This document shows, one piece after another, positions 17,542 through 20,938 of a stretch of 22,352 nucleotides of DNA; within the stretch, counting starts at the first letter, position 1; every line of letters starts with the position of its first letter. The position numbers were made by a program, and so were the translations under genes. This stretch comes from a virus: positions 1-22,352 of the IMG/VR virus record IMGVR_UViG_3300030116_001308. The stretch is one strand, 5' to 3'. Under the pieces are notes generated by a model. That model made no database searches. It worked only from the letters and a program-made list of their open reading frames with translations, and was not told where the DNA came from.

Positions 17542-18957
17542 TTATGTCCACCCTGCAGCTGACACCTTAACGACTTCCTTTCTCTGCACATTTAAACTCA
17601 CAGCGCCAAAAACTTCTCCGCCGTCTGCGTGTAGACACATATACTGAAACGCATCAGCTATGTCAGACCACGGATGGGATTTTTCTGGCTTCTCATCACG
17701 TACCCCCTTCGTATTTATTTTATAACGATATTTTCCTGCAAGAGCCTGTATCAAATTGCCAGCATTAATAGGGCAGGCAATGAATCCATACTTGCCGTCG
17801 ACCACACGTGTGAGGTATTTGTCGACCGCAGATATTCTAGCGGCAACAGAATTTGTTCTTGCAGGACGTATACTAAATCCTTCGTTCTTGTAGATGTCAG
17901 CTACCGTACGTTCGTCGGTCTGTACACGCTGAAACGCAGCGGGGTCGATTATAACCACAGCTTTTCGCCCGCCATATTTGTTCGCCAGCAGAGGTTTCAG
18001 TCTTTCTCTAACAAATCGTAACGCACCCATGCCATCAGAGATAAGTGAATCGTAAACTACCAGACGCCCGTCATATGCGACGTTGCCGATTACTGCAGCA
18101 GGCGTCAGTCCGGCGTCGACACCTATTATCAGTGGGCTGTCTGTAAACATTGGTTTGAGCTCGTCGTCTGCCACGTGCACTGATCTGTCGAACGATCTAA
18201 ATACGGGTTGTCCACTTAAAGACTTACCAAACTGGGCGTGTATATACACATCCACCCAGTCTTCCGTCTTACCTTGAGACAGATTATCGTAGTAATCATC
18301 AGGTAAATACTTAACCCAGTCTGCTTCAGGGCTCATTCCGCTCGGTTGTAGGGTCACATGGACGTTTTCAGGGGGGTCTGTGAGCAAATCTTCCCAATAT
18401 GTGTCCATATCAGGGGGGTTTGTCATGCCCCAAAGGTGCATATTTGGCACTCCATTATCGGTCTGACACCCCACTCCATTCATCATTTTGTCCGGATATC
18501 GCCCTATTCTACCCTGTGCAGCGTTGTAAATATCGGGGTGAATCTCCCTAAATTCGTCAAAAATGAAGAAACTAGCCTGTAAAGACAGCAATCTACGCAC
18601 ATCATTGGCATCATCTAGCCCTCTAAACAGCACTTCACACTCAATTTCACCCACTTTTATGATAAATTTGTACTCAGTTTTGAGAAAACTACCCATAATT
18701 CCATCAGGAATCCACTTTAGGAAGTCCGGAATGGACGTATCTCGCAGCTGTTCACGCGTATTTCGCACCCAAATTGCCCTAGAACGGCGTATTCCGTCCT
18801 TACATGGGGCCATTCTAGCCGCATGATGCAGTATTTTCATGATTCCGGCTGTAGTTTTCGTCGATCCTACGGGGCCAACAGCCAACGAGATGAATTTTTC
18901 ACTATAAAAGAACTCGTCGAGGCTCTTTATGACCTCAAAATTGATTTCATGAGCCAT
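17542..18957 (-). CDS. Terminase large subunit (ATPase and nuclease)
   Basis: A 471-residue DNA packaging motor. The ATPase domain has a Walker A variant GPVGSTKTT at 28-36, a Walker B FFIFDE at 130-135 with catalytic E135, and coupling motif WGMTNPP at 176-182. The RNase H-like nuclease has acidic residues in IIGVDAG (D281), VVIIDPA (D338) and HPWSDIADAF (D432/D435), in the order usual for TerL nucleases. This enzyme translocates DNA into the procapsid and makes the cuts. The lysine of Walker A is K34. It overlaps the candidate small terminase by 11 bases and is followed by the small membrane protein and then the portal. The call is secure; the end type (cos or pac) is not shown. Confidence 0.9.
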   Translation of the reverse strand: MAHEINFEVIKSLDEFFYSEKFISLAVGPVGSTKTTAGIMKILHHAARMAPCKDGIRRSRAIWVRNTREQLRDTSIPDFLKWIPDGIMGSFLKTEYKFIIKVGEIECEVLFRGLDDANDVRRLLSLQASFFIFDEFREIHPDIYNAAQGRIGRYPDKMMNGVGCQTDNGVPNMHLWGMTNPPDMDTYWEDLLTDPPENVHVTLQPSGMSPEADWVKYLPDDYYDNLSQGKTEDWVDVYIHAQFGKSLSGQPVFRSFDRSVHVADDELKPMFTDSPLIIGVDAGLTPAAVIGNVAYDGRLVVYDSLISDGMGALRFVRERLKPLLANKYGGRKAVVIIDPAAFQRVQTDERTVADIYKNEGFSIRPARTNSVAARISAVDKYLTRVVDGKYGFIACPINAGNLIQALAGKYRYKINTKGVRDEKPEKSHPWSDIADAFQYMCLHADGGEVFGAVSLNVQRKEVVKVSAAGWT

Positions 18958-19297
18958 CGTCTATAGCCTGACCCTCAATTGTTATGGCATCTTCCTGATC
19001 TTTGGCGCGTGTGATGTTGATTACCACCTGCGGGCCCGCTCCAGCGACGTCGGTTTTACTATCAGGTTCTAATCTGCCCATTTTATTCAATAACTTTTGA
19101 AATTCTATACGAGCAGTGGGGTTCACCTCCGGACTTTGCATAGTTCTAAAAAGATTATCAAGGTTCACCGCCCCTAATAGGCGCGCGACTGTCTCCATTA
19201 GAGACGGATCTTCCTCGATCTTGGCTAGCTCAGTGGGAGTCAAGATAGGTTCATGGACTTTCGTAGGGTCTATTACATGATTAACACGTTCTGTCAT
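18947..19297 (-). CDS. Terminase small subunit candidate
   Basis: From ATG 19297 the protein has 116 residues; an in-frame GTG at 19303 would give 118. Neither has a ribosome binding site. It begins MTERVNHVIDPTKVHEPILT, then a helical LTPTELAKIEEDPSLMETVA, a Leu-rich RLLGAVNLDNLFRTMQ, an acidic middle and a C-terminal VVINITRAKDQEDAIT, then IEGQAIDDGS. It directly precedes TerL and overlaps it by 11 bases, as TerS genes usually do, but no helix-turn-helix is visible by eye. The assignment therefore rests on position and size. A promoter-like pair just upstream suggests transcription begins at its start. Confidence 0.55.
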   Translation of the reverse strand: MTERVNHVIDPTKVHEPILTPTELAKIEEDPSLMETVARLLGAVNLDNLFRTMQSPEVNPTARIEFQKLLNKMGRLEPDSKTDVAGAGPQVVINITRAKDQEDAITIEGQAIDDGS

Positions 19298-19303
19298 AGC
19301 CAC

Positions 19304-19801: not shown

Positions 19802-20287
19802 ATGCTTACATCAAAGCAAATGGGTATCAAAATTGGTGGCATCAGAAAGTCATCTGAAGCTATCAGAAACAATGTTCATGAAGTACTCTGCAATGCAGCT
19901 GGGTATGTACTGAAAGACGGCGACGCAACATTCTTTACAAGGTTGTTGCAAGCAACCAATGGCATCAACCAACAACGCATCAAGCGTTGGATAAAGGACA
20001 ACGGGTTGGTCACTTGGAACAAGCAAAAGAACCAGTACACTGTGAACAAAAACGCTAGAAAAGAAGCAGAGGAAAAGTTTGCAGACGCACACGATTTCTG
20101 CTTGTACCTTTTCACAGACGTTCCACAATGGCACATTGACCCACCTAAAGCTGAGACTGAGAAGAAAGAATTCGACGTCAAGGTTTGGGCGGCTCGACAG
20201 TACAAAGCACAGCCAGATCATCTCGATGCTATGATCAAGGAGCTTTCAAAGTACAAGGAAAAAGCACAGCTTGACCTTGTCGCTTAA
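19802..20287 (+). CDS. First rightward gene, hypothetical protein (161 aa)
   Basis: The start is taken at ATG 19802 because GGAG lies six bases upstream; the in-frame ATG at 19790 overlaps that site. The 161-residue protein begins MLTSKQMGIKIGGIRKSSEA, is helical, and has a basic middle (INQQRIKRWIKDNGLVTW, then NKQKNQYTVNKNARKEAEEK) that could be a winged-helix-like nucleic-acid binding element. A tryptophan-rich DVPQWHIDPPKAETEKKE part and a helical C-terminus ending YKEKAQLDLVA follow. I recall similar unassigned proteins as early genes in marine podoviruses. As the first gene of the operon, immediately before a repeat array, it may be the protein that binds those repeats, but this is inference only. 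Confidence 0.75.
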   Translation: MLTSKQMGIKIGGIRKSSEAIRNNVHEVLCNAAGYVLKDGDATFFTRLLQATNGINQQRIKRWIKDNGLVTWNKQKNQYTVNKNARKEAEEKFADAHDFCLYLFTDVPQWHIDPPKAETEKKEFDVKVWAARQYKAQPDHLDAMIKELSKYKEKAQLDLVA

Positions 20288-20288
20288 G

Positions 20289-20321
20289 TGACGTCATGCG
20301 AAACGTCATGTAAAACGTCAT
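20289..20321 (+). repeat. Three ACGTCAT repeats at exact 12-base spacing
   Basis: ACGTCAT occurs at 20291-20297, 20303-20309 and 20315-20321, each copy beginning 12 bases after the last. The first copy is part of the palindrome TGACGTCA (20289-20296), and the other two are AACGTCAT. The constant period suggests binding of protein copies on nearly the same face of the helix. Confidence 0.8.
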
Positions 20322-20362
20322 ATTGGGAAACTCAATAAAAACAATCACTTGGGTGTACCTTT

Positions 20363-20386
20363 ATGACGTTATGACGTTATGACGTT
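20363..20386 (-). repeat. Three head-to-tail ATGACGTT repeats
   Basis: ATGACGTT, the complement of AACGTCAT, is repeated three times without spacing (20363-20370, 20371-20378, 20379-20386). The set is inverted relative to the copies on both sides, and an AT-rich stretch with TATAAT follows immediately. It sits where the -35 region of that -10 box would be. Confidence 0.85.
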
Positions 20387-20465
20387 AATATAAAGTATAA
20401 TCAGATATTTCAAAGTGTGCATGGTTAACGTGTATACGACCGCTTATGTTATGTCTCTCTCAATG

Positions 20466-20552
20466 AGCGTCATAACGTCATAAGCTAACGAACTCAATAA
20501 CTTAAACAAATCGAAACGTCATAATGAGCGTCATAACTCGTATGAACGTCAC
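20466..20552 (+). repeat. Five AACGTCAT/AGCGTCAT repeats before the next gene
   Basis: AGCGTCAT (20466-20473) and AACGTCAT (20474-20481) abut each other. AACGTCAT recurs at 20515-20522, AGCGTCAT at 20527-20534 and AACGTCAC at 20545-20552. The last copy ends ten bases before the GGAGG of the next gene, so a bound protein could block its transcription or translation. Confidence 0.8.
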
Positions 20553-20570: not shown

Positions 20571-20855
20571 ATGAAGTCTTATCATAATTATCAAAAGCCA
20601 ACGCCTAAAGTATCATGCAATTGGCACAGAAAACTATCCTCTGCTGACAAGCAAGATAGGGCAATCGCACGTAGCGTATCCGAAACTGCAACCAACAAGC
20701 ACGAGGATATTCTCAAGAAGTATTCGATTACATCGGATGACGGTGCGTGGCTAGTTGTGATGAAAGGTAGACACGACGTTCCTGTCTATAGATCTGCCAC
20801 GCTCAACGACGCTATCGAGTACACACATTATTTCGATCGTGTCTACAACGCGTAA
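20571..20855 (+). CDS. Hypothetical protein (94 aa)
   Basis: The start is ATG 20571 with GGAGG five bases upstream; a TTG at 20559 lies in frame inside that region and is unlikely. The 94-residue protein begins MKSYHNYQKPTPKVSCNWHR, is basic and hydrophilic in its first half, and ends in a compact part (SDDGAWLVVMKGRHDVPVYR, then SATLNDAIEYTHYFDRVYNA) that looks like one helix packed on beta strands. I do not recognise a family. It is followed nine bases later by the tRNA gene, so it probably belongs to the same early transcript. Confidence 0.65.
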   Translation: MKSYHNYQKPTPKVSCNWHRKLSSADKQDRAIARSVSETATNKHEDILKKYSITSDDGAWLVVMKGRHDVPVYRSATLNDAIEYTHYFDRVYNA

Positions 20856-20864
20856 ACTGTTTAT

Positions 20865-20938
20865 GGGGGTCTGGTGTAATGGTAGCACGACAAGTTCCAA
20901 CCTTGTAAGCGTGGGTTCAATTCCTACGACCTCTGCCA
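20865..20938 (+). tRNA. tRNA-Trp (anticodon CCA)
   Basis: A complete cloverleaf can be drawn. The acceptor is GGGGGTC / GACCTCT with two G-U pairs, and the D stem is GTGT / GCAC with loop AATGGTA. The anticodon stem is ACAAG / CTTGT with loop TTCCAAC, giving anticodon CCA at 20897-20899. The variable loop is AAGC, and the T stem GTGGG / CCTAC has loop TTCAATT. The discriminator is G and a 3' CCA is encoded (20936-20938). It lies within the rightward operon of small genes. It reads the single Trp codon UGG and may supplement host supply or replace a damaged host tRNA. Confidence 0.92.

Follow-up and report, generated by a model that had tools for sequence, protein, structure and literature searches.

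An array of short sites beside the early genes

The window, by which we mean the whole stretch of 22,352 bases analysed here, is a phage fragment with leftward structural genes (terminase, portal) at its left and rightward early genes from 19802 onwards. The leftward block includes the terminase large subunit, terL (17542-18957, minus strand; phrog_2, E 9.7e-29), and a probable terminase small subunit, terS, of 118 aa (18947-19303, minus strand), which was named from its position and tail sequence and for which we found neither a family match nor an evident DNA-binding domain. The rightward operon begins with gene 1 (19802-20287, plus strand), encoding a 161-aa protein of the phrog_1448 family with a winged-helix-like model (pLDDT 76; best PDB match E 0.68), and continues with gene 2 (20571-20855, plus strand; 94 aa, function unassigned) and a tRNA-Trp (CCA) gene (20865-20938, plus strand). 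Among 11 loci scanned, a tRNA-Trp(CCA) near the array is also present in L058, L063 and L049.

Between gene 1 and gene 2, where the original prediction had placed it, lies an array of 11 sites in inverted sets (20289-20552). The left set (20290-20321, plus strand) consists of GACGTCAT at 20290 and AACGTCAT at 20302 and 20314, in 12-bp steps, and its offsets are conserved in relatives; the leftmost copy, a variant, is also a palindrome, TGACGTCA, and can thus be read as an inverted site. It is followed by an IHF-like site, AAACAATCACTTG (20339-20351, plus strand), with one mismatch to WATCAANNNNTTR and weaker than its counterpart to the right, and then by a triple tandem repeat on the minus strand (20363-20386; copies at 20363, 20371 and 20379) whose 8-bp period in the TTATGACG register is the useful repeat unit. 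The adjoining AT-rich tract (20387-20412), a candidate melting element, contains the predicted TATAAT (20396-20401) between the inverted sets. The five forward copies beyond it comprise a pair in an 8-bp step (20466-20481, plus strand; AGCGTCAT at 20466, AACGTCAT at 20474), an outer pair in a 12-bp step, 41 bp beyond the inner one (20515-20534, plus strand; AACGTCAT at 20515, AGCGTCAT at 20527), and a border site, AACGTCAC (20545-20552, plus strand). Between the two pairs stands the right IHF-like site, ACTCAATAACTTA (20492-20504, plus strand), with one mismatch.

The count of about eleven copies and their three-fold grouping were thus borne out, all 11 sites at 20290-20552 being AACGTCAT or a one-mismatch variant of it. 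Seven are exact, and these are the only exact copies in the 22-kb window, all within 20302-20522; the four one-mismatch members are GACGTCAT (20290), AGCGTCAT (20466 and 20527) and AACGTCAC (20545). Dinucleotide shuffles of the window (n = 100) contained a mean of 0.91 exact copies and a maximum of 4, with 0/100 reaching 7, in agreement with the earlier assertion that such a density cannot be chance. Likewise, the commonest 7-mer of a 273-bp stretch occurs 8 times, which none of 200 Markov shuffles equalled. Comparable density of the 8-mer elsewhere would have spoken against a dedicated function, and no other dense cluster was found; both relatives that appear to be whole genomes, G001 and G012, carry one such cluster each.

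Largely conserved geometry and a changing word

A scan of IMG/VR for two tandem copies of the word (a 16-mer) returned 54 stretches, of which 12 belong to the window's own phage group (terL 90-99% identical to that of the window over the aligned part) and one to contig G008, the others being isolated pairs or smaller groups, including those of the distant relatives L006 and L029. Spacers diverge among the same-word relatives, while sites and their spacing are constant. Taking the start of the triple as reference, its sites fall at 0, 8 and 16 in 13/13 same-word arrays (window included; one is cut by a contig end), the left sites at -61 and -49 in 12 of the 13 and at -61 and -48 in one, and the second site of the following pair at 111, 121 or 123; a further site stands 41 bp beyond the latter in all 12 same-word arrays that extend that far. 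Across the 13 arrays the gap to the second cluster varies only by 10-12 bp, approximately one helical turn, a pattern more in keeping with proteins on DNA than with pairing in RNA. Two alleles exist in this group: gene 1 either precedes the array, as in the window, or is replaced by a homologue, about 27% alike, that follows it. Close relatives thus differ by a swap of the first early gene, the two diverged phrog_1448 forms lying on different sides of the array; in other relatives, such as L215-L217, this gene has no phrog_1448 match.

In G008, an apparently unrelated phage, ten exact copies of AACGTCAT in both orientations (L064, 11066-11329) directly follow a gene that by eye resembles a primase/helicase. 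This cluster is probably another origin, although G008 (L051, L064) was located by searching for the word itself and so provides no proof of homology. Comparing the array with phage records gave no meaningful match, only 26-bp hits; the comparison with plasmids gave no meaningful match, and the search of bacterial genomes for the geometry pattern gave no match.

The wider family was reached through a search with terL, which gave 210 relatives, 80 of which supplied the locus counts. An array was detected at the same place in 34/34 loci that extend 1,850 nt or more upstream of terL, confirming the conservation that the original prediction had called for, whereas the same detector scored 0/78 on terminase and downstream coding DNA and 0/34 on shuffles. 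With the requirement lowered to at least 1,000 nt, 42/55 loci score, and all 13 that do not end within 1,813 nt of terL; many of the arrays are near-identical, so that these counts overstate independence. The distance from terL is about 1.0-2.2 kb.

What changes across this set is the word. Read at the triple, it takes the forms TTATGACG, TTATTACG, TTATGACA, ATAAGACA, GTAAGACA and TTAAGACA in similar geometry, G001 having TTATGACG and G012 a word of the TTAAGACA type. From phage to phage the change affects almost every copy within an array together, whereas spacing and orientation mostly stay the same. The triple is not always uniform, its first copy being unlike the other two in several arrays, and the array of G031 has an xxTAGACA form. 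The geometry is not universal, since in G025, a 63-kb relative, gene 1 is followed by copies of TTAACCCC spaced in 16-bp steps (L267, upstream of terL); the distant phages L006 and L029 (terL 35%) carry copies of TAACGTCA beside their terminase genes in a different arrangement. The isolates HMO-2011, CRP-1 and RHph_TM3_14A, related via the portal protein, gave no significant 7-mer excess in four gaps tested near the terminase block or strand switch, and repeats that we had suspected in HMO-2011 were withdrawn. Literature searches on the words, HMO-2011 origins, phage iterons/IHF and phage DUF927 returned no description of the array among the titles and abstract openings of open publications.

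Two further features keep their place as the word changes. The 26 nt after the triple have a mean AT content of 0.79 in 42 arrays, against an average of 0.51 for the loci, and in 28 of them the most AT-rich 26-mer begins 15-60 nt from where the triple starts. The IHF consensus, TAAnnnnTTGATW (PMC10380432), is matched as WATCAANNNNTTR at a single position beyond the right pair in all 22 placeable arrays, 21 of them with at most one mismatch, against a background rate of 0.012 per spacer; one of the 22 was reported at offset 24 instead of 16 because the script took the first member of the pair. Such a match to the consensus at a fixed place is what an IHF-dependent origin would be expected to show. 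The remaining 20 of the 42 arrays lack a partner site at +41 and do not enter this count; among 11 of these inspected, a match with at most one mismatch lies on the same strand in 8 and on the opposite strand in 2, with none in L169. In the left spacer, where the window has its weaker site, a match to CA[AG]NNNNTTR stands at this offset in 5 of the 8 arrays shown.

Candidate readers of the word

The original prediction named the 161-residue product of gene 1 as the likely binder, a proposal that comparison among relatives does not support, as words do not track gene 1. L156 and L163 share a word although no resemblance between their first genes can be recognised (13% when alignment is forced; the gene-1 model does not hit L163 at 1e-3). 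The words of L156 and L188 differ although their first genes are 76% alike, and within the window's group both alleles share the word despite their diverged gene 1 on opposite sides of the array. In addition, four unrelated phages with a phrog_1448-family gene have no array beside that gene.

Other proteins were rejected on similar grounds. The terminase small subunit is 94% identical between L175 and L176 (terL 100%) and 99% identical between L168 and L172, and the words differ within both pairs. Five early families, namely a MoxR-type ATPase, a 350-aa protein, a VWA-like protein, a 234-aa protein and a helix-turn-helix-like protein, do not track the word over 6 to 10 genomes. The last of these is a small protein with an apparent C-terminal membrane helix (L057, 14814-15134), found in 6 of the compared early regions. 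The early operon of G001 also encodes a 102-aa protein that is mainly sigma-70 region 4 (L057, 15136-15444; Pfam E 3e-15), and this is present in G004, G014 and G016 as well.

The remaining attractive candidate is the phage's own AEP primase-DUF927 helicase. The window stops short of this gene, which is known from relatives: it is present in G012 as one 982-aa frame and in G001 as three overlapping frames (L057, 4590-7444), a split that is either a sequencing error or a real frameshift, and some 13 kb separate it from the array in G001. The gene product matches Pfam DUF927 (E 1.2e-13) and PDB 5dgk, 'Active helicase' (E 1.3e-9), which we take to be SCCmec Cch, consistent with a match to the SCCmec replicative helicase model (E 2.2e-10, below the model's cut-off). 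For the C-terminal part, the best fold match is SaPIBov1 Rep (8tch), which at E 0.08 (next 2.1) and a model pLDDT of 59 falls below significance; a virus fusion glycoprotein, the best PDB hit of the C-terminal profile (E 5.9e-6), was taken as spurious. Between G001 and other genomes with linked arrays, identity is 51-62% in the C-terminal domain, 78-85% in the helicase core and 49-51% in the primase domain; L246 and L248 cluster with G001. Across the linked genomes, grouping by the C-terminal domain roughly follows the word. The primase domain splits likewise, so the divergence of the C-terminal domain is only compatible with a change of specificity, and shared descent could explain its clustering with the word equally well.

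A candidate replication origin and its relation to known systems

On this evidence we think it probable that the array serves as the replication origin for a phage family distantly related to HMO-2011, with the primase-DUF927 helicase as its probable initiator. Inverted sets of short sites, an AT-rich tract, an IHF-like site and a single cluster per apparently whole genome fit an origin best. Several copies of one initiator would bind the 8-bp sites, IHF or a relative would bend the DNA between them, and the assembly would melt the AT-rich tract beside the triple and load the helicase there. The likeliest initiator would read the sites through its C-terminal domain, as the Rep proteins of staphylococcal islands do, and a drift or exchange of its specificity would carry almost every copy of the word with it. 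Cumulative GC skew, originally suggested as a check, does have its minimum near the array, yet the skew follows transcription, and its maximum lies 17.6-18.6 kb from the divergent boundary rather than opposite; it is uninformative for placing an origin.

The original prediction had offered iteron origin and operator array side by side, and of the two the origin is the better idea given the place, the geometry, the AT-rich tract, the IHF-like site and the single cluster per genome. The operator array survives as the main rival, one that we consider rather unlikely: a phage regulator would act on many operators, together with IHF, to switch the early operon or divergent early/late transcription. 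The array does sit at the boundary of divergent gene blocks and, in one allele, directly upstream of gene 1; TATAAT adjoins the triple, G001 encodes both a sigma-70 region-4 mini-protein and a helix-turn-helix-like protein, and an operator array would likewise be expected to be conserved and unique. In the window, however, the array follows the operon's first gene, promoter-like sites show no clear enrichment (4 found against 2.5 expected; 1 found against 2.4 expected), the word is tracked neither by the helix-turn-helix-like protein nor by four further conserved early proteins, and an AT-rich tract at one fixed place and a single cluster per genome fit an origin better.

Three other readings carry far less weight. 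A packaging site (pac or cosB-like), at which the terminase small subunit would bind the repeats together with IHF, is improbable: lambda cosB pairs repeated sites with IHF in this way, the relatives' arrays lie close to terL and contigs look circularly permuted, but the repeats do not track terS, which in the window has no family match or evident DNA-binding domain. Still less probable is an RNA element, a regulatory hairpin formed in the transcript by the inverted copies. The folding energy is low (z = -6.4), but any inverted repeats give such an energy, the 12-bp-step and 8-bp-step sets cannot all pair, the gaps vary by about one DNA helical turn, and the array occurs on either side of gene 1. 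Clustered sites with IHF also resemble attP, but no integrase or partition gene was recognised among the G001 open reading frames read (by eye, with family scans of part of them), and we give an attachment or partition site the least credence.

The array provides a candidate origin for phages whose record is almost entirely metagenomic, a setting in which origins have rarely been mapped. A kept geometry against a word that changes in nearly all copies amounts to a natural experiment, from which initiator specificity may be readable in sequence pairs. We tentatively entertain, as a possibility of modest likelihood, that a widespread phage group with its own virion genes uses a satellite-type origin with a distant initiator gene, that origin and initiator switch word together by mutation or module exchange, and that near-identical co-infecting phages consequently cannot fire each other's origins, a replication-specificity barrier. 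The array also gives a handle on whether close relatives shut one another out at the initiation step.

Among known systems, HMO-2011-type phages share a distantly related portal protein (about 26%) and similar kinds of genes, and differ in having no significant array in the tested gaps of HMO-2011 and CRP-1. In satellite phage P4, the alpha protein, a primase-helicase initiator, binds short repeats in both orientations at ori/crr. The candidate initiator and the bidirectional short repeats described here are alike in kind; P4, however, is a satellite, and no P4-type origin-binding domain is seen here. A keyword search of an article on HMO-2011-type phages (PMC9038755) turned up no reference to an array of this kind. 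Iteron plasmid origins and E. coli oriC likewise combine initiator boxes next to an AT-rich melting element with an IHF bend, and oriC also has box sets in opposite orientations (PMC4980987, PMC10380432); iteron plasmids mostly have direct repeats of 17-22 bp, in contrast to the 8-bp sites in both orientations found here.

The closest likeness in layout is to the origins of phage-inducible chromosomal islands, PICIs (SaPIbov1, E. coli PICIs), which have multiple short iteron sets flanking an AT-rich region and an initiator with primase and DUF927-type helicase parts (PMC6092414, PMC7581432); a helicase of the SaPI Rep kind is present in the relatives G001 and G012. An AT-rich region between two sets of iterons is described as invariable in PICI origins (PMC6092414). 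In SaPI Rep it is the C-terminal domain that recognises the iterons, and SaPIBov1 Rep has a relative in the DUF927 protein Cch (PMC7581432). The present array differs in belonging to a phage with its own structural genes, in having 8-bp sites in both orientations, an IHF-like site and three to four site clusters, and in lying about 13 kb from the helicase gene (G001), whereas PICI origins are directly 3' of rep. On account of that distance we regard the array as origin-like in the PICI manner and not as a PICI origin. Finding a comparable layout in a phage that has virion genes of its own is relevant to the question of where the replicons of satellites came from.
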